DNA from: Desulfitobacterium dehalogenans ATCC 51507
GTDB taxonomy: Bacteria > Bacillota > Desulfitobacteriia > Desulfitobacteriales > Desulfitobacteriaceae
Direction: 5' to 3'
Length of the DNA: 64,000 nt
NCBI RefSeq assembly: GCF_000243155.2
Contig: NC_018017.1
Location: forward strand, 1,302,001 to 1,366,000
The translations under genes were made by a program, and so were the position numbers. This document shows, piece after piece, positions 33,358-50,919 of the stretch (within the stretch, counting starts at the first letter, position 1; the number at the start of each line of letters is the position of its first letter). The notes under the pieces are model-generated. The model searched no databases. It saw only the letters and a program-made list of their open reading frames with translations, and was not told the DNA's origin.

Positions 33358-33642
33358 ATGAACATTAAGCCTCTAGGTGACAGGGTAGTCATTAAAGCAC
33401 TCCCTATGGAAGAAAAGACAAAAAGCGGAATCATCATGCCGGATACGGCTAAGGAAAAACCTCAAGAAGGTGAAGTCGTTGCAGTAGGACCTGGAAAAGT
33501 GGAAAAGGGAGAGCGCATTGCCCTCGATGTTAAAGTGGGTGACCGCGTGATTTATTCCAAATATGCTGGTACTGAAGTAAAGTATGATGGTCAAGAGTAT
33601 CTCATTCTTAAGGAAACTGACATTTTAGCGGTTATTGGCTAG
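33358..33642 (+). CDS. groES: Co-chaperonin GroES
   Basis: 94 aa. Start [24 protein letters not shown], the mobile loop ([21 protein letters not shown]), roof hairpin and [33 protein letters not shown] end. It caps the GroEL ring. AAGGAGG precedes the ATG; groEL follows after 99 bases in the same CIRCE-controlled transcript. Confidence 0.98.
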
Positions 33643-33687
33643 GACATACTCTTTGCTTATCTACTTAGGAAACTTGACATTGCATAA

Positions 33688-35379
<1,692 letters not shown>

Positions 35380-35530: not shown

Positions 35531-35872
35531 TTAGGCATCTTCGGATGCTTTTAGTTCGACTATTCCGAGGACTTTCATTCTGTTATCATGCGACAGCTTA
35601 CGAAAACTTGATAAAAGAGCCAGTTCATCCTCCGTTAACTCAACGGGGGATATTTTTTTGTCACTTATTCCATAGATATCATCCAGTCTAATCTCTAAGA
35701 AGTTGCAAATATTCAGAAGAGTAGATATGTCGATAGAGTTGGTTCCCTTTTCCCACGATGATATCGTGTTATCTCTTACTCCTAGATGGTTGGCTAATTG
35801 TTTCTGGGTTATACCTCTTCTTTCGCGATATTTGCGTAAGTTTTCAGCTACCCTTACCTTAACTGATTCCAT
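35531..35872 (-). CDS. CI-like XRE repressor of the tail locus
   Basis: 113 aa from the minus-strand ATG at 35872 (AAAGGGGTGG upstream). Residues about 8-65 are a Cro/CI-type helix-turn-helix: AENLRKYRERRGITQKQLANHLGVRDNTISSWEKGTNSIDISTLLNICNFLEIRLDDIYG. The short tail lacks the LexA-type self-cleavage peptidase domain, as in PBSX Xre, so induction must work differently from lambda CI. It is divergent from the Cro-like gene and faces three shared operators. Confidence 0.92.
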   Translation of the reverse strand: MESVKVRVAENLRKYRERRGITQKQLANHLGVRDNTISSWEKGTNSIDISTLLNICNFLEIRLDDIYGISDKKISPVELTEDELALLSSFRKLSHDNRMKVLGIVELKASEDA

Positions 35873-35931
35873 TAATAACCACCCCTTTGTGTTAATTATA
35901 CTTGTAATTATGACCTTAATCAAGATAAACA

Positions 35932-36010
35932 TTCATAAAGTATGAATAAAAGATATTGATTATTCATTATTCATGAAGTAAGATAGTGTTATGAGTTCAT
36001 AAAGTATGAA
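35932..36010. promoter_or_regulatory. Three phase-switch operators
   Basis: Two identical 15-bp palindromes TTCATAAAGTATGAA (35932-35946 and 35996-36010) and a degenerate third (35963-35977) lie in the divergent gap between the CI-like and Cro-like genes. Centres are 31 and 33 bases apart, about three helical turns, as for cooperative repressor dimers. Confidence 0.78.
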
Positions 36011-36026
36011 GTTAGGGGGTGAGGAT

Positions 36027-36278
36027 ATGGTAGGCGAAAATATTAAGCGGTATCTAGAAAACAAGGGTGTTACTCAGGTTTTTTTAGCCGAGAAAGCTAA
36101 GATTTCAACCGGAGCTATCAATCAAATGTTAAACGGTAAACGAAAAATCATCGTAGAAGAATACCTTGCTTTGAAGTGCCTTAAGCTAATCGCGGCTTAT
36201 CGTACTCGAAAGTTGGACAAGCTTCCTAAAAACAGGTGGGCCGAGATATTGGTAAGGGGAGGGACAATAAAGTCATGA
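36027..36278 (+). CDS. Cro-like XRE regulator
   Basis: 83 aa from the ATG at 36027 with GGGGGTGAGG upstream. Helix-turn-helix at about 3-45: GENIKRYLENKGVTQVFLAEKAKISTGAINQMLNGKRKIIVEEYLAL. As the first gene of the rightward operon, divergent from the CI-like repressor, it takes the place of Cro. It overlaps the next small gene by 4 bases. Confidence 0.88.
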   Translation: MVGENIKRYLENKGVTQVFLAEKAKISTGAINQMLNGKRKIIVEEYLALKCLKLIAAYRTRKLDKLPKNRWAEILVRGGTIKS

Positions 36279-36349
36279 CTGATCGAGATCAAAAGGTACA
36301 AGAGCTGTTTACGATATCCATTAGCTTAGTCCCAAAAAAGCAAGCCTAA
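36275..36349 (+). CDS. Coupled microprotein in the regulatory operon
   Basis: 24 aa (MTDRDQKVQELFTISISLVP then KKQA). Its ATGA overlaps the Cro-like stop and its TAATG overlaps the next start, so it fits exactly between two genes by overlapping stops and starts. That packing is the only evidence that it is translated; no family is recognised. Confidence 0.5.
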   Translation: MTDRDQKVQELFTISISLVPKKQA

Positions 36350-36561
36350 TGAAGCAGATCAAAAGAAAAAGGCCCGAAGTCCTGGCAGACTTAACGGGCG
36401 GAATAAAAATAATCTCTGATGTCAGTATATCACAATCTGAATTTATTGGTAAACTCCTACTCGACAGTGACACACACCAGTGGATATGTGATGTGTCCAG
36501 AGTGTTTGGAGTAAGCATGCGTAGAAAAGAGGAGTTGAGTGGCGGTGGAAGAAAGAATTGA
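36349..36561 (+). CDS. Small phage-type protein of unknown function
   Basis: 70 aa, basic. Starts ATG within TAATG of the microprotein and overlaps the next gene. KQIKRKRPEVLADLTGGIKIISDVSISQSEFIGKLLLDSDTHQWICDVSRVFGVSMRRKE has no motif I recognise. The position corresponds to small early genes before the late activator in PBSX-like loci. Confidence 0.55.
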   Translation: MKQIKRKRPEVLADLTGGIKIISDVSISQSEFIGKLLLDSDTHQWICDVSRVFGVSMRRKEELSGGGRKN

Positions 36562-36973
36562 AAGGCATATTAATCAATATGTCGAAGCAGAGCTTAGGAA
36601 TTATCGGACATACAAAAAACTTATTGAGGAATACGATAAAGAGTTGCTGTATACAGGTGCTAAATCGGGGCTTGGTAAAGACCCAACAGGGAGATTCTCA
36701 CAGAATCAGATAAGCGACCCAACACATGATGAAGTAGCGAGGATTATCGCTAATGAGCAGAGAGTTAGCAGAATGAAAGATGTTGTGAAGTGTATCGAGG
36801 ATGTCTTGGAAGAGTTGTCGGAAGAGGAAACAAGATTAGTCGAGATGAAATATTTTAAGAGTTGCTATACAGACTTTGGGATCATCAGTGAGCTGCACAT
36901 AGGGCAAACAAAGTACTATGGAGACAAAAGAAGGATAATCAGAAGGTTTGCTTTAAGGATGCGATTGATATAA
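36539..36973 (+). CDS. ArpU/Xpf-like late-gene activator
   Basis: 144 aa starting GTG (36539, or 36545) behind AAAAGAGGAG. Mostly helical; the C-terminus LSEEETRLVEMKYFKSCYTDFGIISELHIGQTKYYGDKRRIIRRFALRMRLI looks like sigma region 4 (helix-turn-helix), as in ArpU/RinA family phage activators and PBSX Xpf. In PBSX, Xpf turns on the late operon; here the late operon starts 350 bases downstream. DNA target is probably in that gap. Confidence 0.8.
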   Translation: MAVEERIERHINQYVEAELRNYRTYKKLIEEYDKELLYTGAKSGLGKDPTGRFSQNQISDPTHDEVARIIANEQRVSRMKDVVKCIEDVLEELSEEETRLVEMKYFKSCYTDFGIISELHIGQTKYYGDKRRIIRRFALRMRLI

Positions 36974-37323
36974 ACGTAGAATTTGCGAAGTATTCAGCAC
37001 CATTTCCGTAGTATTATGGTATCAGTGAAAGGCGTCCAGAAATGGGCACCTTTCATTATTTATAGGAGTGCCCCTTTCGACAATTCTCCTCTCGGGCGGC
37101 TAGGTGAAATATAGACTAGCCGCTTTGGCTATGCTTTAGATAGTGATGTAGTTGTGAAGATTATAGGGTAAGATTGCGAACCGAGGATATTTAAAGCATT
37201 TACCAAGTTATTGGTAGGTGCTTTCTTTATATTTATTTTTGCCGCTTCGGTACTGTCGGCGCAAAACAACAGGACTCCACCGGACACGACCGGGCAAAAA
37301 GTAATGATGAAAGGATGATTCTT
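36974..37323 (+). promoter_or_regulatory. Leader between regulators and late tail genes, with three hairpins
   Basis: 350 bases without a gene. Three hairpins: GAAAGGCGTCC/GGGCACCTTTC (37027-37037, 37044-37054, one mismatch), GCGGCTAG/CTAGCCGC (37096-37103, 37115-37122), and an 11-bp stem AGCATTTACCA/TGGTAGGTGCT (37195-37205, 37212-37222) followed by a T-rich run. Terminase, portal and capsid genes would lie here in PBSX. The hairpins could end early transcripts or act as an attenuator for the late operon. Confidence 0.6.
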
Positions 37324-37629
37324 ATGAACAAAAAGCAGTATGAAGAGGGGTTAAAGGCAGAGATTGCGAAGCTTCAAGCTTCCTTCGTGGAGTACAGTTG
37401 GGCACACTGGGTACCCGGTCATTGGGAGGAGAATCGTTTTGTCGAAGACAAAGGGGCAATCAAGATTAATAAGGAGGTGATGCCGGCCTATCGGGGGAAC
37501 TACGGCTCTACCGGGATGCATGTCGGAAAAAAATGGCTGGGTGGAAGGCAGATTTATGATGACCACTTCTATGCAGGAGATGGAACAAGTCAAGAATGGC
37601 CAGTCGTCAAAGAAGGAGTGATCCGATGA
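37324..37629 (+). CDS. First late-operon protein, unknown
   Basis: 101 aa from the ATG at 37324 (GAAAGGA about 10 bases upstream). Hydrophilic, Trp/Tyr-rich: WAHWVPGHWEENRFVEDKGAIKINKEVMPAYRGNYGSTGMHVGKKWLGGRQIYDDHFYAGDG. I do not recognise the family. The gene overlaps the next by 4 bases, and its position just before the tail terminator suggests a role at the tail end or neck. Confidence 0.6.
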   Translation: MNKKQYEEGLKAEIAKLQASFVEYSWAHWVPGHWEENRFVEDKGAIKINKEVMPAYRGNYGSTGMHVGKKWLGGRQIYDDHFYAGDGTSQEWPVVKEGVIR

Positions 37630-38087
37630 GCGCTATTACAGTTAATGGGGTACGGGATAGTGTTATAACACTATTACATCAGCATTTCTCCGGCATCTCT
37701 ACTTATGGCGAAGAGATTCTGCAAGGTCCTGATAAACCTTATTTTTTTGTGAAGCTTTTCCAGGTGTCTCAGGATCAGCTCATCAGCCAGCGATATCAAC
37801 GGAACCACTCTTTCGATATTCACTACTTTCCGGCAGCGGTGGATGAGGGCGAAGAAAATCGGCAAAATGAGGAGATGCACGGCATAGCTGAGCAGCTGTA
37901 CGAAAAAATGGAGCTGATCCCGGTGATAGGCGGGGATGATGAACCAATGCGAGGTACGAAAATGCGACATGAAATTATCGACGGAGTGCTGCATTTTTTT
38001 GTGGATTACAACTTTCAGATCATAAAAGAGACGACACTCGATCCACTGATGCAGACGATGGAACAGGAGGGATTTATTCGTGGCTAA
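37626..38087 (+). CDS. Phage tail terminator-like protein (XkdJ position)
   Basis: 153 aa from the ATG at 37626. AITVNGVRDSVITLLHQHFSGISTYGEEILQGPDKPYFFVKLFQVSQDQLISQRYQRNHSFDIHYFP resembles the tail terminator/completion proteins of Firmicute myophages (PBSX xkdJ-like position, upstream of the sheath). Such proteins cap the tube after it reaches the length set by the tape measure. Assignment rests on composition and gene order. Confidence 0.7.
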   Translation: MSAITVNGVRDSVITLLHQHFSGISTYGEEILQGPDKPYFFVKLFQVSQDQLISQRYQRNHSFDIHYFPAAVDEGEENRQNEEMHGIAEQLYEKMELIPVIGGDDEPMRGTKMRHEIIDGVLHFFVDYNFQIIKETTLDPLMQTMEQEGFIRG

Positions 38088-38256
38088 GAAAGATAAACCT
38101 GTTGAAAAAGTATATTCAAAGTCGCAGATCCTGCAATCAAAGCAATTCACGGCACAAAGAGACGTATTAAAGGCTTTGCTGAGGGATGGCGTCAACTATA
38201 CCAAGAATGAAGCTATCTCAATTCTTGGTGATTTTTTAACAAAGGAGGCTAAATAA
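38080..38256 (+). CDS. Small conserved PBSX-type tail protein
   Basis: 58 aa starting GTG at 38080 with AGGAGGG upstream; overlaps the preceding gene by 8 bases and ends 2 bases before the sheath gene. KVYSKSQILQSKQFTAQRDVLKALLRDGVNYTKNEAISILGDFLTKEAK matches a pattern often seen just before sheath genes in PBSX-like loci (helix, RDxLxxLL, glycine, xxEAxxxLxxFL). Its role is unknown. Confidence 0.7.
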   Translation: MAKKDKPVEKVYSKSQILQSKQFTAQRDVLKALLRDGVNYTKNEAISILGDFLTKEAK

Positions 38257-38258
38257 AA

Positions 38259-39575
38259 ATGGCAGCAGGCACATTTACAAATCAAAACAAGGTGAGACCT
38301 GGCGTATATATTAATTTTAAATCTGAGCCCCAGGTAGGAAAGACTTTGGGCGAACGGGGGATTACATCCATCCCATTAATTCTAAGCTGGGGCGAGCCCA
38401 ATAAAATTATAACCATCGAAGCTGGCGAGGATGTATTTACGAAACTGGGGTATCCCATCAAGGATTCTAAATTACTCTTGATCAATGAGGCTTTGAAACG
38501 TGCCAGGAAACTACTTCTCTATCGACTGAACGTTGGCACGAAGGCGACGGCAACAGTAGGAAACTTGACGGTATCGGCCAAGTGGGGCGGAGTCCGTGGT
38601 AACGATATTACCATCGTTATTCAGGAAAATATCGATGATGAGACAAAGTTTGATGTATCGACCTTAGTGGACGGAGCCGAGATCGACAAGCAAACCGTGT
38701 CCGATATCGACGGTCTTACCGCAAATGATTGGGTCATTTTTTCTGGTACCGGCACCCTAATAGAAACAGCAGGTGCTCCACTAGTGAACGGGTCTGATGG
38801 AACCGTGACGAATCAGGCCTATGTCGATTATCTGGCTGCTGTGGAGATTTTCGACTTTAACACGATTGCGCTGCCTAGCACAGATGATACGCTCAAGGCA
38901 ACCTTCACGGCCTTTGCCAAACGGCTCCGGGACGACGAAGGGAAAAAGATCCAGGTCGTTCTTGAAAATTACCCTGCTGCTGATTATGAGGGTGTGATTA
39001 GTGTTAAAAACGGCGTAGTACTCTCTAATGGAACTACCCTGACAGCAGCTCAAGCGACAGCGTGGGTGGCCAGTGCAACTGCGGGGGCACAGGTAAATGA
39101 ATCGCTCACCTATCAGGCCTACGAGGATGCAGTCGATGTAGCTCCCCGGTATACCAATGCCCAGATCGTTGCGGCGTTGCAGGCAGGGGAATTCTTATTT
39201 ACCGCGAATGACAACCAGGCGCTGGTGGAGCAGGATATTAACACCCTGACCAGCTTCACGGTGGATAAAGGAAAGCAGCTCGCCAAGAACCGAGTGATCA
39301 GGGTCCTGGATGGAATAAACAATGATTTTGTCCGGATTTTTTCGAAGTTCTATATTGGCAAAGTATCCAATAATGCGGATGGACGGAACCTGTTGAAATC
39401 AGAGTGTATTAACTACATGAACACCTTACAGGGTATTGATGCAATTCAGAATTTTGATGCTCAATCGGATATAACAGTTCAAGCCGGTAATGATGTGGAT
39501 GCGGTCTATATTGAGGCTTACGCATGGCCGGTAGATAGCATTGAAAAGATTTATGTTCTTGTACGGATTAAATAG
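38259..39575 (+). CDS. xkdK: Contractile tail sheath protein (XkdK-like)
   Basis: 438 aa. N-terminus MAAGTFTNQNKVRPGVYINFKSEPQ and RGITSIPLILSWGEPNKIITIE are hallmark of the Phage_sheath_1 family; the C-terminus RVLDGINNDFVRIFSKFYIGKVSNNADGRNLLKSECINYMNTLQ forms the conserved sheath core. The sheath contracts to drive the tube into the target cell. Its presence fixes the tail as contractile (myovirus or R-type). Confidence 0.95.
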   Translation: MAAGTFTNQNKVRPGVYINFKSEPQVGKTLGERGITSIPLILSWGEPNKIITIEAGEDVFTKLGYPIKDSKLLLINEALKRARKLLLYRLNVGTKATATVGNLTVSAKWGGVRGNDITIVIQENIDDETKFDVSTLVDGAEIDKQTVSDIDGLTANDWVIFSGTGTLIETAGAPLVNGSDGTVTNQAYVDYLAAVEIFDFNTIALPSTDDTLKATFTAFAKRLRDDEGKKIQVVLENYPAADYEGVISVKNGVVLSNGTTLTAAQATAWVASATAGAQVNESLTYQAYEDAVDVAPRYTNAQIVAALQAGEFLFTANDNQALVEQDINTLTSFTVDKGKQLAKNRVIRVLDGINNDFVRIFSKFYIGKVSNNADGRNLLKSECINYMNTLQGIDAIQNFDAQSDITVQAGNDVDAVYIEAYAWPVDSIEKIYVLVRIK

Positions 39576-39594
39576 AAAGTGAAGGTGAGATAAG

Positions 39595-40062
39595 ATGGCA
39601 TATTTAAGATCGGAAGACGCAGTTAGCGGCAAGCAGGCCAAAGCTTTTGCTACGATCAATGGTCGGGTGGAAGAGTTATTTTATGCTAAATCCATTGAGG
39701 CTACCATTGAAAAGAATAAAGCGGATGTCCCTATTCTGGGCAGGACGAATGTGGGAAAGAAAGCTGCGGGCTGGGCCGGCAGTGGGACCTTGACGATCTA
39801 TTATTTTACGAGCCTGTTCAGGCAGTTGATGATTGAATATGTGAAAACCGGGCGGGACTTCTATTTTGACCTTCAAATCGTCAACGAGGACCCAGCCTCT
39901 GGTGTAGGGAAACAGACAGTTGTGCTTAAAGGCTGCAATTTGGACAGCATAGTAGCAACTTCCTTTGATATCACTTCGGATGATCCTCTGGAAGAGGAGA
40001 TGCCCTTTACTTTCGAGGATATTGATATGCTGGATCAGTTTAGTCGGCCTGTGACGGTATAA
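39595..40062 (+). CDS. xkdM: Tail tube protein (XkdM-like)
   Basis: 155 aa. LRSEDAVSGKQAKAFATINGRVEELFYAKSIEATIEKNKADVPILGRTNVGKKAAGWAGSGTLTIYYFTSLFRQLMIEYVKTGRDFYFDLQIVNEDP is the PBSX XkdM pattern. It polymerises into the inner tube inside the sheath. 19 bases after the sheath gene. Confidence 0.94.
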   Translation: MAYLRSEDAVSGKQAKAFATINGRVEELFYAKSIEATIEKNKADVPILGRTNVGKKAAGWAGSGTLTIYYFTSLFRQLMIEYVKTGRDFYFDLQIVNEDPASGVGKQTVVLKGCNLDSIVATSFDITSDDPLEEEMPFTFEDIDMLDQFSRPVTV

Positions 40063-40117
40063 AAGCACTTTTTGAGGTTATATCATGCCGTGAGACACAT
40101 CTCTAACTTCGCTTTTG

Positions 40118-40145
40118 AGGAGATCAGATAAAATGCTGGTCTCCT
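40118..40145 (+). terminator. Hairpin between tube and tail chaperone genes
   Basis: A 10-bp stem with one G-U pair (40118-40127, 40136-40145) and a short T run. A partial terminator here would make the sheath and tube genes, needed in many copies, more expressed than those downstream. Confidence 0.55.
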
Positions 40146-40207
40146 TTCCATTACCGTTGTTAAATGTTTTCTTAGTATTTGATGAAATTTGGGAGGAATA
40201 AAGAAAT

Positions 40208-40621
40208 ATGAGTGATTTACAAGATTTCTTAATGGACAGTTTTGAAGATGCAGAAATTATTGAACGCAAAGTAAGTCTTGGCGGGAAGGAAAAGATTATG
40301 AAGTTTAAAGCTATTTCAGCCGCCACAGGTGACGAGATCAGGAAGAGCTGCCGTAAAACAAGCTTCCATAAAGGTCAGCGGGTTGTTGAGACTGACCAGG
40401 ATGCATTCGTGGCTAAACTGATTATTGAAACAACTGTATTTCCTGACTTCAAATCACAGGAGCTTCAGCAAAGCTGGGGGGTGCTTGGGGCTGAAAATCT
40501 TCTAAAAGCCATGAAAGCAAAAATGAAGGATGGTGAATATGCTACCGTTTCGACTATTGTCAGTGAAATTAATGGTTATGACACGAGCATGAACGATTTG
40601 GTCGAAGAAGCAAAAAACTAA
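40208..40621 (+). CDS. xkdN: Tail assembly chaperone, short form (XkdN-like)
   Basis: 137 aa, GGGAGGAA upstream. SDLQDFLMDSFEDAEIIERKVSLGGKEKIMKFKAISAATGDEIRKSCRK fits the XkdN family, the PBSX counterpart of lambda gpG. It lies between tube and tape measure as expected. The last three codons contain the slippery heptamer A-AAA-AAC and the stop follows at once, so part of the ribosomes should continue into the -1 frame. Confidence 0.92.
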   Translation: MSDLQDFLMDSFEDAEIIERKVSLGGKEKIMKFKAISAATGDEIRKSCRKTSFHKGQRVVETDQDAFVAKLIIETTVFPDFKSQELQQSWGVLGAENLLKAMKAKMKDGEYATVSTIVSEINGYDTSMNDLVEEAKN

Positions 40622-40797
40622 TTGAGGAGGGCAATGCTGAGTGGAATTACGCTTACTACGCCCTCCATGAGCTTCATATTTCGCCTGGTGCATTTATGAG
40701 ATTGCCCCGTAATGAAAAGGCGGCCATTTATGCCATGATCGATATTCGCATCAAAAAAGAAAAGCAGGAGATGGCGAAAACAAGGAAAAAGAGATGA
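40612..40797 (+). CDS. -1 frameshift extension of the tail assembly chaperone (gpGT-like)
   Basis: Slippery site A-AAA-AAC at 40612-40618, 0-frame stop TAA at 40619, and a 59-codon -1 frame from CTA 40618 to TGA 40795-40797: LIEEGNAEWNYAYYALHELH and on to a basic KKEKQEMAKTRKKR end. After a 7-base spacer a 7-bp GC-rich stem GGAGGGC/GCCCTCC (40626-40632, 40660-40666) can act as stimulator. The fused product would have 196 aa. This is the conserved layout of tail chaperones that load tape measure protein. There is no independent start codon with a proper ribosome site for the extension. Confidence 0.88.
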   Translation, partial: KKLIEEGNAEWNYAYYALHELHISPGAFMRLPRNEKAAIYAMIDIRIKKEKQEMAKTRKKR

Positions 40798-40872
40798 GGC
40801 GGCTAAGTCCAAAAGGAATAGCAATTGGTCAAAAACTTCGTCTTAACTAAGAACTCAAAAGGAGGTGGTAAT

Positions 40873-41457
40873 GTGGCAACGATTAGTTCCGCATTGGGTA
40901 TGTTTAATAAAATACCCAATGTTGCAGATAAGTTAATCCACGCTGCAAAAGTAATTGGTGAGCCAACAATGGGTGCTGCAGTAAAACAACAGCAGATTAT
41001 AGATGCGTCACTTTCAGGAACAATGTTCCCCATATTCAAGCCCATAGACATAAACATATTGGAGCAGCTTAAAGGCTTAGTAATGCGGATTTCGAAGCTA
41101 AATCCAATAGAAGGATTAGTGGCAACGAGCAGTTCAGCATTGGGTATGTTTAATAAAATACCCAATGTTGCAGACAAGTTAATCCACGCAGCAAAAGTAA
41201 TTGGCGAGCCAACAATAGGTGCGGCAATGAAACAACAGCAGACTATAGATACTTTTAGCGCAAAGGCCGGGAGTGAGCCTCTTGGTAAGGCGATTTATCA
41301 TCGAATTACAAAGCAAGCTTTAGCATTAGGACAAGATGTGGATGCTTCACTTTCAGGAACAATGTCTTTCATGTCCAATACCATAGATCCAAGCAAATTG
41401 GAGCAGCTTAATGGCTTAGCAATGCGGCTCTCTATGCTAAATCCAACTGAAGGATTA
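40873..41457 (+). repeat. In-frame tandem duplication in the tape measure gene
   Basis: Unit 1 is 40873-41118 (82 codons), unit 2 is 41119-41457 (113 codons). Both start GTGGCAACG and both end in a shared GGATTA motif; segments SALGMFNKIPNVADKLIHAAKV and ASLSGTM...LEQL occur in each. Unit 2 has 31 extra codons (AKAGSEPLGKAIYHRITKQALALGQ region) that unit 1 lacks. Unit 2's GTG at 41119 has AAGGA 4 bases upstream and might be the older start. Confidence 0.9.
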
Positions 41458-42669
41458 GAAGGGGCCGCATCTTCGATGAAAGAACTGATGTCAGGCAACT
41501 ATACATCAATGGCTGACCGCTTTAACATGAGCGGGGCAATGCTTGAAGGCAGTGAGGTGCAGCAGGCTGGACTTAAAGGAAATATCGATGAATTTATTAA
41601 AGGGATGGACGAATTATTAAACCAGCAAAACATGACTCAGGAAGCTTTTGAAAAGTTGCTGGACCGCCCGTTGGTAAAGTGGCAGAAGATTATTCAAATA
41701 TTTAAGTATAGTATGGCTAACGCGGGGGAAGATGCTGCGAATGCTTTGTCCCCTCTCTTGGATATGATTATTAAAGGTTTTGAGTCTGACGAATTTAGAC
41801 TGTTTCTTAACATTGTAAGCGTTGGGCTAACTGGGTTAGTTGCTGGAATCCAATGGGTAGTTACGATGGTTCAAAATGCATGGCCCGCTATTCTGCAGAT
41901 ATTTTTGGGTATAGGGACCTTGATATACAATCTGGGTGTGATTCTCTTGGGCTTAATGCCAATCATACTAGGAGTTGCGGCAGCTTGGTTGGTGCTGAAT
42001 TTCGTTGTGAAGAAGAACCCCATCGGGTTGTTTATTAGTTCTGTAATAGGGCTTATTACTGTTTTGGTATCGTTAGGCTTAGTAACGAACGGAATCAGAC
42101 AAGTGTTCTCTGATGCCTTTGGGTTTATTGTTGATGTTGTGGAAGACGCAATAAATGCAGTTTTTGGAATAATTAATGGTGCGATAAAAGGAATAAACGC
42201 AGTATCTGGATTCTTTGCTAATCTCTTAAATGTTGAGTCAAAACAAATACAAGAGATCCAAGTTAAGGCTGATTTTTCAGAATTTAAAAAGGCTGGACAA
42301 AATGCCATAGAGAATTTTTCAATAGATGATCTAAAAGCAAAGTTTGGGCTTGATAATAAGTTTAATAAGCAAGAAGACTATCCCCTAAACAATCCTCTAG
42401 AGGATTCCTTCCCCAACATTGACCGAATCGACAGAGTCGGCGAAGTCGGCAAAATCAATGACACCGTAGATATCTCCAGTGAAGATCTGAAGATTATGCG
42501 CGAGTTAGCCGAAATGAAGAACATCCAAAACTTCGTAACGCTCACCCCGACGGTATCTGTGACCACAGGAGACATCCGCAATGGAAGTGATGCGGATACC
42601 ATTGTATCCAAGATTAAGACCATGTTGGAGAGAGATATCGCATCATCGACATCAGCTGTGTATGGATAA
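40873..42669 (+). CDS. Tape measure protein, short, with N-terminal duplication
   Basis: 598 aa from the GTG at 40873 with AAAGGAGGTGG upstream (TTG 40825 is a weaker choice). Tape measure features: NMTQEAFEKLLDRPLVKWQKIIQIFKYSMANAGEDAANALSPLLDMII, several hydrophobic helices at about 310-420 (VGLTGLVAGIQWVVTMV, ILGVAAAWLVL, LFISSVIGLITVLVSLGL), and a C-terminal baseplate-binding part. The first 82 codons are a diverged copy of codons 83-195. XkdO of PBSX is over 1300 aa; this is less than half, implying a short tail if functional. Confidence 0.9.
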   Translation: MATISSALGMFNKIPNVADKLIHAAKVIGEPTMGAAVKQQQIIDASLSGTMFPIFKPIDINILEQLKGLVMRISKLNPIEGLVATSSSALGMFNKIPNVADKLIHAAKVIGEPTIGAAMKQQQTIDTFSAKAGSEPLGKAIYHRITKQALALGQDVDASLSGTMSFMSNTIDPSKLEQLNGLAMRLSMLNPTEGLEGAASSMKELMSGNYTSMADRFNMSGAMLEGSEVQQAGLKGNIDEFIKGMDELLNQQNMTQEAFEKLLDRPLVKWQKIIQIFKYSMANAGEDAANALSPLLDMIIKGFESDEFRLFLNIVSVGLTGLVAGIQWVVTMVQNAWPAILQIFLGIGTLIYNLGVILLGLMPIILGVAAAWLVLNFVVKKNPIGLFISSVIGLITVLVSLGLVTNGIRQVFSDAFGFIVDVVEDAINAVFGIINGAIKGINAVSGFFANLLNVESKQIQEIQVKADFSEFKKAGQNAIENFSIDDLKAKFGLDNKFNKQEDYPLNNPLEDSFPNIDRIDRVGEVGKINDTVDISSEDLKIMRELAEMKNIQNFVTLTPTVSVTTGDIRNGSDADTIVSKIKTMLERDIASSTSAVYG

Positions 42670-42708
42670 GTCATAAAATAATGCCATGGAAAGGCAGGTG
42701 ATACCAAA

Positions 42709-43374
42709 ATGTCCTACAGCATTAGACTCAGTTTTAGTGAGGATGAAGCCTTCCAGCTCCCAGTAATGCCAGGAAGCATTGAAATAAGCAAATCCGGTAA
42801 CAACCAAACCCAAGAAATCGTATCCTTGGGTGAGATTAACATCATTAAACATCCTCAGCTCATGGAATACGGATTTAGCAGTATCTTTCCAGCCCAGTTT
42901 TATCCCTTTGTGACAGCGCAAGTCATCCTGCAGCCGATAGAATATGTCCGGATTATCATCAGGTGGATGGAGTCTAAACAACCCATCCGTTTTATTTTTA
43001 TTTCAGATCGCGTCGATATCAACACCTTAGCCAGCATCGAAAGCTTTGATTGGAAAGAGGTTGCCGGTGGCTCAGGGGATATTGAATACTCCATTAAATT
43101 GAAGAGGTATGTCTCCTATGCAGCCACAAGGGTCACAGAAGATATGATCATCGATAGAGGCGCCTCCACAGCCGTGCCGACTCCGACACCCTCCAGACCA
43201 AACGAGACACAGCAGATTAAAACGTATACTTTGGTGGCAGGGGATACCTTATGGGCTGTAGCTCAAAAGCACTTGGGCAACGGCGCTCGCTGGCCGGAAA
43301 TACAGCAGCTGAATAGCATTACGGATGCTGAAATTAAGCGCCTGCAGATCGGTCGGGTGCTAAAACTGCCATAA
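42709..43374 (+). CDS. xkdP: LysM tail protein (XkdP-like)
   Basis: 221 aa. N-terminal FQLPVMPGSIEISKSGNNQTQEIVSLGEINIIKHPQLMEYGFSSIFPAQFYPF is the XkdP/gp53-like baseplate domain; the C-terminal about 170-221 is a LysM domain (TYTLVAGDTLWAVAQKHLGNGARWPEIQQLN). It lies at the tube-baseplate junction and binds peptidoglycan-like glycan or assists assembly. Confidence 0.93.
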   Translation: MSYSIRLSFSEDEAFQLPVMPGSIEISKSGNNQTQEIVSLGEINIIKHPQLMEYGFSSIFPAQFYPFVTAQVILQPIEYVRIIIRWMESKQPIRFIFISDRVDINTLASIESFDWKEVAGGSGDIEYSIKLKRYVSYAATRVTEDMIIDRGASTAVPTPTPSRPNETQQIKTYTLVAGDTLWAVAQKHLGNGARWPEIQQLNSITDAEIKRLQIGRVLKLP

Positions 43375-43388
43375 GGAGAATTAAAGTT

Positions 43389-44360
43389 ATGCTGAAAGTA
43401 GTCTTAGATAATAAAGACGGAAACGTTTGGGATATCTCTCGGATTGTCGCCGATGTGAGCTGGAAAACGAGTCGGATGGGTAAAGCGGGTAGCCTGGACT
43501 TTACACTCATTAAGACTGCATCTGATCAGGAGCCATTGTTCAAATACTCCAACGGGGATATTGTCCATGTGCAGATGCAGGATGGAACGAATGTCTTTTA
43601 TGGATATATCTTCTCGATTGATAGTGGAAGCAGTGAGACGGTTAATATCACCTGTTATGACCAGTTGCGCTACCTCATGGCCAGCGAGACTTGTGTATGG
43701 ACCAACATAAAAGCATCCGAAGTTGTTCAGAAGATTGCTGCGGACTTTGATCTAAAACTAGGGCGGATTGATGACACCGGCTATCTAATCCCCAGTGTAC
43801 ATGAAGACAACCAGAAGCTGATGGACATCATCTGCAAAGCCCTGGACCTTACCCTGATCAACACCGGCAAAAACTATGTCTTCTTCGACGATTTCGGAGC
43901 CTTGTCAGTTCGGAATGTCGAAGATTTTCTCTTGGATTTTATCATTGGCGACTACAGCCTCATGACAGACTTCAGTCATAGGGTTTCTATTGACTCTGAC
44001 ACCTATAATGTCATCAAACTATATAAGGACAATCAAGAAACAGGCAAGCGGGAAATTTACGAGGCGCATGACAGTGTCAATATAGCCAAGTGGGGAGTAC
44101 TACAACTTTATCAATCCGTAGACGAAAACATGAACTATGCCCAAATCAATGAAATGCTCACAAATTTATCTGCGATTAAGAATCGCGAGACGAGATCCCT
44201 TAAGATTGAAGCTCTGGGCGACATTCGAGTCCAGGGTGGCCGTTATGTAAGAATTCAAATAGCAGAGTATGGGATTAATCAACCCTTTCTGGTCGATGAA
44301 TGCACTCACCGCTTTAATGGAGTGGACCATACCATGAGTCTTGAGTTAAGGGTCATTTGA
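43389..44360 (+). CDS. xkdQ: Baseplate hub protein (XkdQ-like)
   Basis: 323 aa. LKVVLDNKDGNVWDISRIVADVSWKTSRMGKAGSLDFTLIK and VHVQMQDGTNVFYGYIFSIDSGSSETVNITCYDQLRYLMASETCVW are the XkdQ/gpD-like hub pattern, the trimeric platform on which the tube starts. No lysozyme domain is fused. AAGGAG site upstream. Confidence 0.93.
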   Translation: MLKVVLDNKDGNVWDISRIVADVSWKTSRMGKAGSLDFTLIKTASDQEPLFKYSNGDIVHVQMQDGTNVFYGYIFSIDSGSSETVNITCYDQLRYLMASETCVWTNIKASEVVQKIAADFDLKLGRIDDTGYLIPSVHEDNQKLMDIICKALDLTLINTGKNYVFFDDFGALSVRNVEDFLLDFIIGDYSLMTDFSHRVSIDSDTYNVIKLYKDNQETGKREIYEAHDSVNIAKWGVLQLYQSVDENMNYAQINEMLTNLSAIKNRETRSLKIEALGDIRVQGGRYVRIQIAEYGINQPFLVDECTHRFNGVDHTMSLELRVI

Positions 44361-44379
44361 TAATTGAGGAGGTGATGAA

Positions 44380-44739
44380 ATGTCTAGTTTATTAGACTTG
44401 ATCAAAGCAGCAGGAACTGATGCTGTCAATGCATCTAACCCTGTGAATATCCTTTTTGGCGAGATCTTAACGGTGAATCCGCTCAGTGTCAAAGTCGATC
44501 AACGTTTTACACTGCCGGAGGATTTTTTAATTGTGCCGGAGGGGGTGACAAATTACGAAGTGGATTTGCAACATACGCATCAATACACTGACAATGGGTC
44601 TGCGAGTAACACTTCGGAAGCCTTAACTTCCAAAATCGTGATTCGTTCCGGGCTTGCCCCAGGGGATAGGGTCCTGATGCTTAAGGTCCAGGGAGGGCAG
44701 CGTTATGTCATTTTAGATAAGGTGGTGACAACATTATGA
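44380..44739 (+). CDS. xkdR: Baseplate protein, DUF2577 (XkdR-like)
   Basis: 119 aa with the DUF2577 layout: LLDLIKAAGTDAVNASNPVNILFGEILTVNPLSVKVDQRFTLPEDFLIVPEGVT, a predicted small beta-rich OB-like or spike-associated protein. GGAGGTGATG precedes the ATG. The 3' end overlaps the next gene by 4 bases. Confidence 0.92.
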   Translation: MSSLLDLIKAAGTDAVNASNPVNILFGEILTVNPLSVKVDQRFTLPEDFLIVPEGVTNYEVDLQHTHQYTDNGSASNTSEALTSKIVIRSGLAPGDRVLMLKVQGGQRYVILDKVVTTL

Positions 44740-45137
44740 TACCTACTGGTGGAAGAATTACCCATGGGACGATCCAATATGCCGAACGGCCTTCCCTCAC
44801 ATGGAGAATTGATCCGGAAAAAGAGCGCATCACCGGGAGACTGGACGGACTGGAATCTGTGCAACAAGCCGCTGCCAAAATTCTGCAGACGCAGCGGTTT
44901 CGTCATTTGATCTATACTCCGAATTATGGCTGTGAGTTAAGTCAATTGATGGGCATGAATCCGACTTTCATGAAGTCTGAAGCCACGAGGATGCTTCAGG
45001 AGGCATTGACTCAGGATGACCGGATCATAGGAGTCGAGAATGTGCAGACCACAGCTACTGGGGATAGCCTGCTGATTGAGTTTACGGTGGTCAGCACCTA
45101 CGGGAGCTTCGATATGACTCAGGAGGTGAGTGGTTAA
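44736..45137 (+). CDS. xkdS: Baseplate wedge protein, DUF2634 (XkdS-like)
   Basis: 133 aa. TWRIDPEKERITGRLDGLESVQQAAAKILQTQRFRHLIYTPNYGCELSQLMGMNPTFMKSEATRMLQEALTQDDRI is the DUF2634/gp25-like wedge fold. Translationally coupled on both sides (ATGA and TAATG overlaps), so it is made in step with XkdR and XkdT. Confidence 0.93.
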   Translation: MIPTGGRITHGTIQYAERPSLTWRIDPEKERITGRLDGLESVQQAAAKILQTQRFRHLIYTPNYGCELSQLMGMNPTFMKSEATRMLQEALTQDDRIIGVENVQTTATGDSLLIEFTVVSTYGSFDMTQEVSG

Positions 45138-46216
45138 TGTATGAACATCAGACCTATGAGGCGATTCTGGCCAGGATGCTCGCCCGGGTGCCGGTGACCA
45201 TCGACAAGCGGGAGGGCAGCCTGATTTACGATGCCTTGGCCCCGGCAGCGGCGGAGCTGGCTCAGTCATATGCTGAGTTAGAGGTCAACAACAATCTTTC
45301 TTTCGCAGATACGGCCAGTGGGGAATTTTTAACCCGCCGGGTCGCTGAGTTTGGAATCAAGCGGAAGGTGGCTACAAAAGCCTGGCGGCGCGGCGGATTT
45401 CTGGACAGCAATAGTGCTCTTCTTAACATTCCGCTAGGCAGCCGCTACAGTATCGGTGGGCTGAATTATACAACTATTGAACAGATCAGTACCGGCGTGT
45501 ATGTCCTTGAATGCGAAACGGCTGGAACGGCAGGCAATCAGCAGTTTGGGGATTTGCTCCCTATCGCCTATGTCAATGGTCTTGCCAAGGCGGAACTCAC
45601 CGAGGTGCTAGTTCCAGGTGAGGATGAGGAGACAGATGAAGCCCTGCTCTCAAGATATTATGAGACGGTTAACGAACCGGCTTTTGGCGGGAATATGGCA
45701 GATTATAGGCAGAAAATCAATGCTATTAATGGTGTCGGAGGAAGCAAAGTCTTTCCAACCTGGGCCGGCGGCGGGACCGTGAAATGCACGATTATTGCTG
45801 CTGACTGGACTAAGCCATCTCCCGAATTAGTGAATGAGGTCCAGTCCACCATGGATCCGGAAGAGAATCAAGGTATGGGGCTGGGGCAGGCACCTATCGG
45901 CCATACCGTGACGATTACCGGGGTGGATAAGGTCACGGTGAATGTGGAAACGACGCTCACTCTTGCGCCCGGCGTAACTCCTGGGCAGGTTCAGTCCGAT
46001 GTGGAAGCGGTCTTAGACGCCTATCTTTTAGAACAAAGAAAAGCCTGGGCTGCTCAGACCCAGATCATCGTCCGGACGGCACAAATTGATGCCCGGATGC
46101 TTACGATCCAAGGCGTCGAAGATGTGATTGGAACAAAGCTTAATGGGATGGAGGCCAATCTCGTGCTTGACGAGGAAGAAATTCCAATCCTGGGGACGGT
46201 GGTTATAAATGAGTAA
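45137..46216 (+). CDS. xkdT: Baseplate J-like protein (XkdT-like)
   Basis: 359 aa. YEAILARMLARVPVTIDKREGSLIYDALAPAAAELAQSYAELEVNNNLSFADTASGEFLTRRVAEFGIKRKVATKAWRRGGF matches the Baseplate_J/gp6-like domain that forms the wedge ring. The C-terminus has the conserved IDARMLTIQGVEDVIGTKLNG segment. Overlaps the next gene by 8 bases. Confidence 0.95.
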   Translation: MYEHQTYEAILARMLARVPVTIDKREGSLIYDALAPAAAELAQSYAELEVNNNLSFADTASGEFLTRRVAEFGIKRKVATKAWRRGGFLDSNSALLNIPLGSRYSIGGLNYTTIEQISTGVYVLECETAGTAGNQQFGDLLPIAYVNGLAKAELTEVLVPGEDEETDEALLSRYYETVNEPAFGGNMADYRQKINAINGVGGSKVFPTWAGGGTVKCTIIAADWTKPSPELVNEVQSTMDPEENQGMGLGQAPIGHTVTITGVDKVTVNVETTLTLAPGVTPGQVQSDVEAVLDAYLLEQRKAWAAQTQIIVRTAQIDARMLTIQGVEDVIGTKLNGMEANLVLDEEEIPILGTVVINE

Positions 46217-46796
46217 GTCGATTAGAGAGTATTGGCCCAAATTGCTTGATAACATCTTAGACTTTCAGATTCTAGCTGATACGGTGGATACCGAAATACT
46301 ATCTCTCGATGGCGCAAGGGATCAGCAATTCGCTGATCAATTCGTTCTCACTTCGGGCTACGAGGCGATAAAACATCGGGAAAGAATATTGGGCATCCAG
46401 GCCGATCCCACGACTGAAAGGCTGGACTTCCGGAAAAAACGGATTATTAATCGGTATTCATCCAAGCCACCCTTCACCATTCGCTATCTTCAGGACCGTT
46501 TGGATTTTCTGGTAGGTGAAGAGAAAGCAACTGTTAGTGTAGATGTTCAAGACTTTCTTCTTTTTGTAGAAGCAGCAATTGAAGATGCGGCCCTCTTTAA
46601 AGAGGTCGAGAGAACAATAAAAACCATCAAACCGGCAAACTTGATCTATAACCAGCAGACCGCTTTGGGTGATCATATCTCTCTTGAAGAACATATCGGT
46701 TTCCGTACGTTAGAGAGACAAGCTCGACTAGGCATAACATGGAGATTAGGGATTACGCTCTTTGCTGTAGCAGGTCCGGAGGTGATCATAAAGTGA
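46209..46796 (+). CDS. xkdU: Baseplate wedge protein, DUF2313/YmfQ-like (XkdU-like)
   Basis: 195 aa. REYWPKLLDNILDFQILADTVDTEILSLDGARDQQFADQFVLTSGYEAIKHRERILGIQADPTTERLDFRKKRIINRYSSKPPFTIRYLQDRLDFLVG is the XkdU/YmfQ pattern (P2 gpI-like), connecting wedge and fibre. The stop overlaps the next GTG. Confidence 0.92.
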   Translation: MSKSIREYWPKLLDNILDFQILADTVDTEILSLDGARDQQFADQFVLTSGYEAIKHRERILGIQADPTTERLDFRKKRIINRYSSKPPFTIRYLQDRLDFLVGEEKATVSVDVQDFLLFVEAAIEDAALFKEVERTIKTIKPANLIYNQQTALGDHISLEEHIGFRTLERQARLGITWRLGITLFAVAGPEVIIK

Positions 46797-47074
46797 TATC
46801 AACAAAATTTTTATCCAGTATAGCAGGATATGTAGATGGTCAAGTAGCTAAAGTTGTATTAAATGGAAGCTATGAAATCACCAGCTTCAAAGTCAAAGAG
46901 ACAGGGCAAGGCTTGGTTAATATGCAATATGTCGTTCCTGATGGTGCGGTTCCGATAGTCTCTTTAATCGAGCTTAGGGATAGTTCAGATACTGTCATCA
47001 GCTCAAATGAAGTATATGTACCGATTACTGCGGATACGATCATAACGCAATCCATTCGAGTTAAGGAGGGTTGA
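46793..47074 (+). CDS. Small tail protein after the wedge gene, unknown
   Basis: 93 aa starting GTG at 46793 with GGAGGTGAT upstream and a GTGA overlap. Predicted mostly beta strands (IAGYVDGQVAKVVLNGSYEITSFKVKETGQGLVNMQYVVPDGAVPIVSLIELRDSSDTVIS). Similar small genes sit between xkdU and fibre in clostridial myophages, and may form a fibre adaptor. Family not recognised. Confidence 0.7.
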   Translation: MISTKFLSSIAGYVDGQVAKVVLNGSYEITSFKVKETGQGLVNMQYVVPDGAVPIVSLIELRDSSDTVISSNEVYVPITADTIITQSIRVKEG

Positions 47075-47076
47075 GA

Positions 47077-48480
47077 ATGGCAAAGACAAATTGGCAATAT
47101 GGTGAAATTGTCACCGAGGAAGATTTTAACCAATTGGGGCAAGAAATGAATGAAGCCACGGCTGGATTAGCTGTTCTGGAAGAGCAGATTGGGGAAGCGG
47201 AACAAATCAGCAAAGCCTACACCGATCAGCAAATTCAGCTGGTTACAGCTACCGGCATCCCCAAACTGGTAACCTACTCATATGTACTGACAGCTGGCCA
47301 GCAGGATCAAACTGATTTTGAAATACCTTTGGAAACCTTCGTCAAGGAAACAGACACGGTGACTGTTGCCCAGAATAGCACGGTGTTGAGCACGGAGCGA
47401 TACAGTATCATTGACCCGAAGACAGTTCGATTGGCTGAAGGAGTAAATATAGGAACAGAAATATTTATTCAGGTATGGAAGAACGTGCCTATCGGTCCGG
47501 ATGGAGCGATATCTGCGGCAGTGCTGGCTAATGATACTGTGACAGAGTCGAAGATGGCTGATGAGATGAAAAAGGATATCCCTGGAGGAGTGGCGGGGTA
47601 TGATACATTTGCTACACATTTGGCGGAAAATGCGAAGCATGTCCCTCATTTAGGCACAACGACAAATGTAGGTAACGCTTACAGTGTTACGAGTTCGGAG
47701 ATAATTGACGGCAATGATAAATTCAGTGTTAAATTCAACGCTGTTGCAACTGGTACAGCAACTCTTAAAATTTCATCAGACGGGACAGCAAGAACATTAA
47801 AAAAACCTGATGGGAGCGATTTTAAACCAAAGGCAGGAATATATTCATTCATTCGAGATGGAGTAAATTTTCAGTTGTTGGGTGAAGGGGGTGAGTACGG
47901 GAACGCACAACCTCAACATGTACTATCCCCTTATACAATTGGCACTGACGAAGGAGTAGTACCTGGAACAATCCCCAGCAAGGGAGCGCAGACCTTTACA
48001 CCCGGCACTACCAACCAGACCATAGCATCTGGACAATATCTAAGTGGTGTGCAGACGATTGCTGGAAGTGATAATTTGAAGCCTGAGAATATTAAAGCAG
48101 GGGTTAATATTTTTGATAAGGTTGGGACATTGCAACCTGCGTCTGGTTCTAATGTATATAAGAGTTTTAGTTTCGGCAACAACCCCTCTAGAGTTTCTGG
48201 AACCCAGTATAGCGAATATTTTACTATAGATGGTTTGAGTTTTACTCCGCGTCAAATCGTTGGTTACGGAACAGCAATAGGTACTGGCAATGATGTTACT
48301 GGTATTTTAGCATATGGCGAATACTTAACAACCCAAGTATCAACAGCTTATGGGTACAATGTACTGAAATTTAATGATGTCCAGTTCAGCTATGGAAAAG
48401 TTGTATTTAGACTTTCATTTTATAAAATGCAAGGAGACAATGGCGTAGGATTTGGAGCAATCTCTCTTATAGTGGCATAA
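47077..48480 (+). CDS. Tail fibre / receptor-binding protein
   Basis: 467 aa from the ATG at 47077 with AAGGAGGG upstream. N-terminal attachment part (about 1-150, coiled region LGQEMNEATAGLAVLEEQIGEAEQISKAYTDQQIQLVTATG), a linker, then a fibre segment with TFTPGTTNQTIASGQYLSGVQTIAGSDNLKPENIKAGVNIFDKVGT, a motif widely repeated in Gram-positive tail fibres, and a beta-rich C-terminal tip. It should determine which cells the tail attaches to. The IS110 element lies immediately behind its stop. Confidence 0.88.
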   Translation: MAKTNWQYGEIVTEEDFNQLGQEMNEATAGLAVLEEQIGEAEQISKAYTDQQIQLVTATGIPKLVTYSYVLTAGQQDQTDFEIPLETFVKETDTVTVAQNSTVLSTERYSIIDPKTVRLAEGVNIGTEIFIQVWKNVPIGPDGAISAAVLANDTVTESKMADEMKKDIPGGVAGYDTFATHLAENAKHVPHLGTTTNVGNAYSVTSSEIIDGNDKFSVKFNAVATGTATLKISSDGTARTLKKPDGSDFKPKAGIYSFIRDGVNFQLLGEGGEYGNAQPQHVLSPYTIGTDEGVVPGTIPSKGAQTFTPGTTNQTIASGQYLSGVQTIAGSDNLKPENIKAGVNIFDKVGTLQPASGSNVYKSFSFGNNPSRVSGTQYSEYFTIDGLSFTPRQIVGYGTAIGTGNDVTGILAYGEYLTTQVSTAYGYNVLKFNDVQFSYGKVVFRLSFYKMQGDNGVGFGAISLIVA

Positions 48481-50250
48481 ATACAAGATAATATGGAGCA
48501 TTCCTGTAGTAGTCAAAAATGAGCTTTGTCAAAAAGAAGACCTCACGTTACAATTTGAAAGGACTGTTGGCCAACAGAATCCAATCAAAATAACGGAGGT
48601 CATCCCCAATGAATTTTACACAAAACGAGAAACTAAAGCAACTATCCGAAAGAAGTATTGTGATCGGAGTGGACATCGCCAGCGAGCTTCATTACGCCAA
48701 GGCTTTCGACTGGCGAGGAGTCGAGCTAGGCAAGGTATTCAAGTTTGAAAACAGTGCTGAAGGATTCAAGGATTTCTACGCATGGATTGAACATTTAAAA
48801 AGGCAAGCACAAAAGGACTGTACAGTGGTAGGCGCAGAGCCAACCGGTCATTACTGGTTTGGCCTGGCATCCTACCTAAAAGAGCAAAGCATTAAGCTGG
48901 TCCTCGTCAACCCATTCCATGTAAAGCGTAGTAAGGAGCTTGATGATAACCACCCCAGCAAAACGGATGCAAAGGACCCCAAAACCATCGCTAAGCTGGT
49001 CATCGAGGGCAGATACAATGAGTCCTATATCCCGGAGGGGATCTATGCAGAACTGCGAATAGCAATGGCCTGCAGGATGCGCATCCAAAAGGAAATGAAC
49101 AGTATAAAAAATCGTGTTCAACGGTGGCTGAAAATCTACTTTCCCGAGCATGAAACGGTGTTTGGAAAGTTTGATGCCACGAGTAGCATGCTGGTATTGC
49201 AAGTTGCCCCGCTACCTAGGGATGTTGAAAGACTTGGAGCAGAAGGAATCAACCGAATTTGGAGAGACAACAAGTTGAGAGCAGTGGGAATGAAAAGGGC
49301 TAAGAGCCTGTATGAAGCTGCTCAGAAGAGCATTGGTTGCACCGAAGGAGAGTCTTGTTCCCGAATGGAAATCCAGCTATTACTGCAAGACTATCATACT
49401 AAAACAGCACAATATGAGGCAGTCACTGAAACCATCGATGGGTTGTGCCGTCAGATACCCGAAGTAGCCAAGTTGCTTGAAATTAAAGGTGTTGGCCTCG
49501 TTACCGTGGCAGGTTTTCTCTCCGAAGTTGGAGATATTAGACGCTTTAATCTCCAAAGCAAATTCAAAAGCTAGCGGGCCTAGCCTTGCGAGAAAGTAGC
49601 TCGGGTAAGCACAAAGGACAGACCACGATCAGCAAGCGCGGCCGCGCACGACTAAGGGCGATTCTATTTCAGGCAGTGATGCCGCTCGTCGCCAAAAACG
49701 CAGAGTTTGCAGAGATACACACCTACTATACGACAAGGCCCAAGAATCCACTGAAGAAGAAGCAATCGTTAATAGCCTTAAGCTGTAAACTGATTCGGGT
49801 GTTTTATGCCCTATTAACAAAGGGTATAGACTATGACCCGAACAAGCTAATACAGGACATTCATCGTCCAGTTGAGTATTTAGCAGCGTAACAGAATAGC
49901 AGAGAAACCATAAAAAGTAACGGTCTGTGGGTAAAGCGTCACCACAGAAGCGAGTCATCCAGGTAACCTAACAAGACACAAGAGCTGGTAGTCAGTCGAA
50001 TAAATCACCATTAGAGCAATGACTCGGTTGAGGAGCATAACTGACACCCAATCATGGATAGGTGGAACGAAGGAATTTAGGGCAGGTTTTATAAGCTTGA
50101 CCCTGTTAGACATGGGAGGTTTACCACCGTGAGAATTATGGGTTTACAACGGCCAACATATCAATAGCAGACGTTGGCTTTGCCATACCCGAATTCTCTG
50201 AATGAGGCATTCTATGCGAATTCTATCCGTGGTGAGTTAATTTGGTTCGT
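48481..50250 (+). mobile_element. IS110-family insertion element (approximate ends)
   Basis: Holds a frameshifted IS110 transposase with 128 non-coding bases before it and about 360-420 after it. Ends are not exact because IS110 elements have no clear terminal inverted repeats; the hexamer GCATTC occurs at 48498-48503 and 50207-50212 and could mark them. The long 3' non-coding stretch (49892-50300) contains no gene. In this family such non-coding ends encode the bridge RNA that specifies target and donor. Confidence 0.75.
48609..49891 (+). pseudogene. IS110 transposase, broken by a one-base deletion
   Basis: The first frame (48609-49574) has the RuvC-like DEDD part: VIGVDIASELHYAK, VVGAEPTGHYW and HPSKTDAKDPKTIAKL. 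It continues into EVGDIRRFN then runs out of frame to a stop. From about 49552 the reading P-KQIQKLAGLALRESSSGKHKGQTTISKRGRARLRAILFQAV continues in the -1 frame to the stop at 49891, carrying the Tnp domain with the conserved serine region. One base is missing between the Asn codon and the Pro codon near 49551. The catalytic halves are thus separated; the copy should be inactive unless supplied in trans. Confidence 0.9.
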
Positions 50251-50318
50251 TAGAAATTCTATGAAAAAGCGAGATATTCAAAGAAATCATAAGATATTAT
50301 AGGGAGGGTGATTACAAA

Positions 50319-50732
50319 ATGCAAATAGGAAGAAAAATATATTACGAATTAACCATTGGTGATGTGGTTTTAACCACACTTGAAAAACTAAACGGTATTA
50401 ACACAACCAAAGAACAAGACTTTGCTATGTACGATGCTTTGCAAGCATATAGTCCAGAAGCAATAGGAGTTATGCAGTTAGAGTATGGACAATACCAAAG
50501 TGATTTTTTAACTGCAAATTCTTGGAAAGTGGATTTAGAGACGGGTAGTTTAATCTTTAACTATCCAATTTTTGAACAACCACTTTCTATAAAGGTGGAG
50601 CAATTGGAGTCAGAGAATACAAGTTTAAGAAGTCAGGTGTCGCAGATGGAAACTACAATCTCTAATCAGCAGTCTTTGATTGACGAACTCACCTTGCAAC
50701 TCGGCCATGCACTACTAGGAGGTGCTTTATAA
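50319..50732 (+). CDS. Phage tail-associated protein with C-terminal coiled coil
   Basis: 137 aa, GGGAGGGTGATT upstream. MQIGRKIYYELTIGDVVLTTLEK and QAYSPEAIGVMQLEYGQYQSDFLTANSWKVDLETGSLIFNYP fit a protein type seen behind fibres in clostridial phages; residues about 90-125 form a coiled coil (VEQLESENTSLRSQVSQMETTISNQQSLIDEL). Likely a fibre partner or chaperone. Overlaps the next small gene by one base. Confidence 0.7.
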   Translation: MQIGRKIYYELTIGDVVLTTLEKLNGINTTKEQDFAMYDALQAYSPEAIGVMQLEYGQYQSDFLTANSWKVDLETGSLIFNYPIFEQPLSIKVEQLESENTSLRSQVSQMETTISNQQSLIDELTLQLGHALLGGAL

Positions 50733-50863
50733 TGAGTTTTTGGGCTAATTATGTACTACTCAAAGAAAAGCAAGGGCAGGATAGGGCAATCACTTTACAA
50801 ATGATCGAGGACAAGTTTGGAGCGGAGAAAAGACAGGAAATCGAGACAGAGCTTGCTGCATAA
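50732..50863 (+). CDS. Small XkdX-like protein
   Basis: 43 aa (MSFWANYVLLKEKQGQDRAI then TLQMIEDKFGAEKRQEIETELAA), starting in a TAATG overlap. Short FW-start proteins with an amphipathic helix follow fibre genes in PBSX-like loci (xkdX). The role is unknown. Its stop lies in one copy of a 25-bp direct repeat. Confidence 0.55.
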   Translation: MSFWANYVLLKEKQGQDRAITLQMIEDKFGAEKRQEIETELAA

Positions 50864-50878
50864 TAGACCCATAATGCG
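50854..50878 (+). repeat. Direct repeat, left copy, flanking the second fibre cassette
   Basis: 25 bases spanning the end of the XkdX-like gene (TGCTGCATAATAGACCC and on). It matches 52361-52385 at 23 of 25 positions. Both copies cover the stop of an XkdX-like small gene. Confidence 0.85.
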
Positions 50879-50919
50879 ACATAAAGAGGAATGATTTACT
50901 TTATAAGGAAGGTGAAATA

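Follow-up and report, generated by a model that had tools for sequence, protein, structure and literature searches.

The question raised by this locus is whether a tail assembly chaperone gene of Desulfitobacterium dehalogenans ATCC 51507, carried in a cluster of phage tail genes, encodes a second, longer product by way of a -1 programmed frameshift. The initial annotation had read the end of the gene as a textbook gpG/gpGT arrangement, retained in a tail-only locus and implying selection for working tail assembly. We analyzed the window, a 64,000-nucleotide stretch of the chromosome (NC_018017.1, positions 1,302,001 to 1,366,000), together with homologous loci. On comparative sequence evidence, we consider it highly probable that this XkdN-family chaperone gene, located in a tailocin-like cluster, uses -1 programmed ribosomal frameshifting, aided by a downstream stem, to yield a GT-like product. 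The gene, its two neighbors and the elements of the putative frameshift site are as follows.

39595-40062, + strand: tail tube protein, XkdM-like (PF09393, E 9.6e-49); expected partner of the T-like extension
40208-40621, + strand: frame-0 product (G-like), XkdN-family tail assembly chaperone of 137 aa, ending A-K-N-stop (matches to PF08890 and phrog_389)
40612-40618, + strand: slippery heptamer A_AAA_AAC (AAAAAAC), in phase as A-AAA-AAC
40619-40621, + strand: frame-0 stop TAA, abutting the heptamer
40618-40797, + strand: -1 frame extension (T-like) of 59 aa, LIEEGNAEWNYAYYALHEL...KKR, with stop TGA at 40795-40797
40626-40632, + strand: 5' arm of the stem, GGAGGGC, within the minimum free energy (MFE) structure; folding exceeds that of synonymous randomizations
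40660-40666, + strand: 3' arm of the stem, GCCCTCC, pairing with 40626-40632
40825-42669, + strand: tape measure protein, 614 aa from a TTG start (phrog_1068, E 6.5e-60); expected partner of G

The frame-0 product matches PF08890 (Phage_TAC_5, XkdN-like) with an E value of 6e-39 and 133.5 bits, against a gathering cut-off of 27, and covers the profile end to end (1-135 of 135). The solved structure 3klu (YqbN) is a family relative (E 2.8e-47), and the gene is placed between those for the tail tube and the tape measure. The XkdN-like chaperone gp57 of phiCD508 went undetected in virions by mass spectrometry (PMC11948020), an absence that is expected of an assembly chaperone.

Frame 0 closes with GCA-AAA-AAC-TAA, the 59 sense codons of the -1 frame run from 40618 to 40794, and a 7-nt spacer (40619-40625) separates the heptamer from the GC-rich 7-bp stem, which is part of an MFE structure of -25.6 kcal/mol (z -2.46 relative to dinucleotide shuffles). 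In all of these elements the initial annotation was exact to the nucleotide. Across the window, 112 open frames reach 100 codons or more, and 2 of them close with X_XXY_YYZ; 20.5% of the stop triplets are accompanied by a -1 frame that stays open for at least 59 codons. The chance level of the arrangement is about 0.4% per open frame, with about 0.4 instances expected in the window. A lone instance is therefore mildly unusual and proves little, so that the evidence must come from relatives.

We compared 88 distinct chaperones drawn from the same genome, order-level relatives, 399 genomes of the phylum, IMG/VR and ten annotated phages. In this alignment, the check that the initial annotation had proposed, A_AAA_AAC occurs near the frame-0 stop in 83 of the 88 homologues from Bacillota genomes and phages, although these sequences are related and the counts are not independent. 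The commonest layout, found in 77 of 88, places a heptamer of any type directly before the stop, and nearly all 88 carry a -1 extension of about 45-80 codons that is conserved in length and sequence. A general lack of slippery site and extension among homologues, one outcome that would have spoken against the claim, is not what these counts show. The five exceptions to the heptamer comprise three members in which nine As precede TAG, one that has eight As, and the locus L045, which has AAAAAAG farther from its stop. A search of genome contigs with the single chaperone protein yielded no match; a held-out set was reached by using the sheath gene as bait and included loci from Desulfosporosinus, Paenibacillus, Cohnella and others; here the heptamer was in place in 16 of 17 homologues, the exception (L130) having a truncated chaperone frame, and the two sets are not perfectly disjoint in that held-out L115 resembles L008 of the first set.

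Codon choice at the site was also examined. Where the frame-0 product ends in Lys-Asn, Lys is encoded by AAA in 84 of 84 members (background 0.57) and Asn by AAC in 83 of 84 (background 0.43), while the preceding codon (GCA, GTA, ATA, CTA, TTA or AAA) ends in A in all 84, against a background of 0.05-0.24 for A-ending Ala, Val, Ile and Leu codons; these counts cover related sequences and are given with no formal probability. At internal Lys-Asn dipeptides, the heptamer is formed in only 4 of 51 cases. Throughout a phylum, synonymous alternatives to the heptamer have been rejected. The region in which both frames are open spans 13 nt or less in 29 of 82 members, so that a shift there could take place hardly anywhere but at the heptamer. 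The conservation in both sets, together with this fixation of silent sites, lifts the arrangement far beyond chance. An upstream Shine-Dalgarno-like stimulator was rejected as a family feature, given that a 4-nt match 5-20 nt upstream was present at only 25 of 89 heptamer sites.

The extension behaves as a protein-coding sequence. Its pairwise dN/dS, for pairs with unsaturated dS, ranges from 0.02 to 0.22 and is comparable to the frame-0 values of these genes, most changes falling at third codon positions; the -1 extension is therefore under purifying selection. A frameshift mutation, a pseudogene or a chance A-run could be entertained from the chance level of about 0.4% per open frame when the arrangement is taken by itself, but the same layout in 83 of 88 and 16 of 17 homologues, and the purifying selection in both frames, make this explanation practically negligible. 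The extension matches four PHROG families (phrog_10943, phrog_20560, phrog_5646 and phrog_33439), all of unknown function, which are probably pieces of XkdN-like -1 extensions annotated as ORFs of their own. For the 59 residues, AlphaFold run on the single sequence predicts three helices with a mean pLDDT of 74 and a pTM of 0.48. Descent of the extension from the lambda T domain was considered and rejected, as hhalign gave a probability of 0.2% and no Pfam T family was matched.

The -1 frame might instead be a gene in its own right with a separate start, or be reached by reinitiation after the G stop, and some public records do list a small hypothetical ORF at this place (Abouo gp18 and PBP180 ORF21). 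The -1 frame opens at 40582, however, and contains no ATG, GTG or TTG up to the heptamer and through the first codons beyond it, nor any before codon 27 of the extension. The ATG at codon 27 is the earliest in frame and comes too late for the conserved part, leaving the -1 frame with no usable start of its own, as had been claimed for it. Likewise, 49 of 82 homologues have no start codon between the -1 stop and the tenth extension codon, and the silent fixation of the heptamer would be left unexplained. We therefore regard an independent gene or reinitiation as extremely unlikely.

Folding downstream of the heptamer was evaluated over 68 nt in 82 members against synonymous-codon randomizations. 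The mean z was -2.38, with 51 of 82 members below -2 and one above +1, while three control stretches of the same genes gave mean z values of -0.45, -0.28 and -0.40. Because null codons were sampled from family-pooled usage, genomes with an extreme base composition bring extra noise into the test; the controls are subject to the same flaw and still lie near zero. Among thirteen closer relatives the core of the stem is nearly invariant and G-U replacements are tolerated, but a change on both sides occurs at one outer pair only, the other pairs being mostly invariant or changed on one side. Covariation was thus set aside as proof of the stem because variation is too limited, and the stem rests on the synonymous-site and energy evidence. 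From these results, the RNA fold downstream of the heptamer is under selection.

A further explanation is transcriptional slippage: slipping of RNA polymerase on the A run would yield an edited mRNA, from which normal decoding produces the extension. Runs of A can support polymerase slippage, and a related subgroup (loci L073, L078 and L089) has nine As followed by TAG. The run in the window consists of only six As, which is short for slippage by a bacterial polymerase. The C that follows the run is conserved (AAC in 83 of 84), although slippage on A would not need it, and the selected downstream fold fits ribosomal frameshifting better. Transcriptional slippage is accordingly judged very unlikely at this locus, and ribosomal frameshifting is the reading we prefer.

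In the subgroup itself, the frame ends GTT/ATT-AAA-AAA-AAA-TAG, so that nine As replace A_AAA_AAC, and the -1 frame is open for 47-52 codons; either ribosomal or transcriptional slippage could operate there. In L088, a relative of these loci, the run counts eight As and the frames are related differently. L089 is the third XkdN-like locus of the D. dehalogenans genome (C1:4190000-4209000, with its chaperone at C1:4198206-4198556). A broader proposal, possible though rather doubtful, is that the XkdN family carries one near-invariant module across Bacillota, consisting of A_AAA_AAC, an adjacent stop and a selected fold, with a heptamer reported to be weaker than A_AAA_AAG in E. coli, and that the sub-branch of L089, L073 and L078 replaced it with nine As and TAG and may use transcriptional slippage for the same G/GT ratio.

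The surroundings of the gene bear on the claims that the locus is tail-only and under selection for tail assembly. Its extent and its sheath gene are as follows.

35531-53883: tail-only (tailocin-like) cluster, from profile matches and conserved order in L105-L109
38259-39575, + strand: contractile tail sheath (PF04984, PF17482, PF17481; solved homologue 3hxl)

The cluster contains genes for repressor-like and ArpU-like regulators, a tail terminator, sheath, tube, chaperone, tape measure, a LysM protein, XkdQ-like and DUF2577 proteins, a sheath initiator, baseplate J, a Gp48-like protein, fibre, an XhlA-like protein, an amidase and a holin-like protein, some of these names being our own reading of the ORFs. 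The sheath has its closest relative in DSY3957 of Desulfitobacterium hafniense (3hxl) and is also related to the diffocin sheath CD1363. Profile matches identified no head gene between 35.5 and 53.9 kb, where some ORFs had no match, and the locus is, as far as tested, tail-only as claimed. The gene order is kept in five other IMG/VR records (L105-L109), among which fibres and tape measures vary and the rest is conserved. The D. dehalogenans genome has three PF08890 loci, and the copy that is 86% identical belongs to a 53-kb prophage record (L111) that, in contrast to the window cluster, has terminase, portal, scaffold and capsid genes. Between tail-only loci, the dN/dS of the extension is 0.04 (window vs L021) and 0.17 (window vs L023), and with the order kept in five records these values support the proposed selection for working tail assembly. 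Taken together, the findings support a domesticated, tailocin-like cluster with selection on its frameshift module.

Several other features of the cluster and its edges were observed. The tape measure shares only 54-72% identity with its L105 counterpart, whereas most neighbors are 92-100% identical, which suggests exchange of the tape measure gene. The N-terminal part of the same gene contains internal direct repeats (40873-41004 with 41119-41250, and 41002-41119 with 41341-41458) with identities of 92% and 81%. Immediately upstream of the cluster are groES-groEL (33358-35379), and groEL is also a neighbor in L105. An IS110-family transposase (48609-49891), possibly inactivated, is found downstream of the fibre gene as two ORFs of 321 and 101 aa. 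At the downstream edge lies a group II intron (54556-56642; RF02012, RF00029) with a reverse transcriptase ORF at 55067-56605; in L105, too, this reverse transcriptase starts downstream of the cluster. In four related tail-only loci the amidase match falls into two pieces (L106:1132-1645, L107:1136-1649, L108:15108-15621 and L109:1068-1590) with the middle, about residues 70-128, unmatched, unlike in the window; this marks a degenerate or divergent lysis gene in those loci.

The proposed mechanism follows the precedent and the roles described for the lambda G/GT frameshift (PMC5009743). Most ribosomes would stay in frame 0 and terminate at the TAA, and their product would be the G-like chaperone of 137 aa. 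The remaining minority would slip back one base on A_AAA_AAC, the tRNAs re-pairing on AAA-AAA with the aid of the GC-rich stem 7 nt downstream, and would read 59 more codons, the result being a GT-like product of about 196 aa. If lambda is a guide, G would coat the tape measure, the GT-like product would also bind tube subunits through its extension and start tube polymerization, and neither product would remain in the particle; the G:GT ratio would thus matter for building the contractile tail. We infer the slippage, its efficiency and the partners of each product. In E. coli, A_AAA_AAC is less slippery than A_AAA_AAG (PMC5009743), so efficiency may be low here, and low efficiency would suit lambda-like ratios. 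The gpG/gpGT arrangement proposed in the initial annotation fits the conserved heptamer, the purifying selection on the -1 frame, the selected fold and the position between tube and tape measure genes. Since a search for homology between the extension and lambda T found none, the term gpGT-like rests on gene position and mechanism.

The mechanism is textbook and the locus is a further example of known biology. The locus indicates that a headless tail cluster has retained the recoding required for ordered assembly of the tail, and this argues for a contractile particle that functions. The analysis also identifies a C-terminal coding region overlooked in the phage records examined, and four PHROG families of unknown function are accounted for as matches to the extension. 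With its near-invariant A_AAA_AAC, the family offers a clean natural series in which to ask why tails of Bacillota rely on a heptamer weaker in E. coli than A_AAA_AAG, and the near-fixation of AAC and the nine-A sub-branch are points that a specialist might follow.

Frameshifting in XkdN genes is not described in the papers examined, PMC9406221, PMC12671070 and PMC11948020 (phage) and PMC6088184 (diffocin). At the level of its genes, the cluster resembles Gram-positive contractile tailocins such as diffocin and PBSX-like bacteriocins in its sheath, tube, baseplate, fibre and lysis genes, its variable fibres, the lack of an identified head gene and its maintenance as a unit. As in the G/GT system of phage lambda, the gene lies between tube and tape measure, a heptamer near the end of frame 0 separates a short chaperone from a -1 extended form, and the proposed roles are the same. 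Unlike in lambda, the heptamer is A_AAA_AAC rather than GGGAAAG (visible in L114), the frame-0 stop abuts it, and the extension has 59 aa, against 144 aa for annotated lambda T, and no detectable sequence homology to it. By profile, the chaperone belongs with the XkdN/YqbN (PF08890) proteins of PBSX-like phages and elements, for which 3klu is the solved relative. In phage records of this family the extension is unannotated or appears as a separate small ORF, and a joined frameshift CDS is marked in none of the ten annotated records; the same heptamer and -1 extension are present in PBSX-like PBP180 and in Brevibacillus, Clostridioides and Lactobacillus phages.
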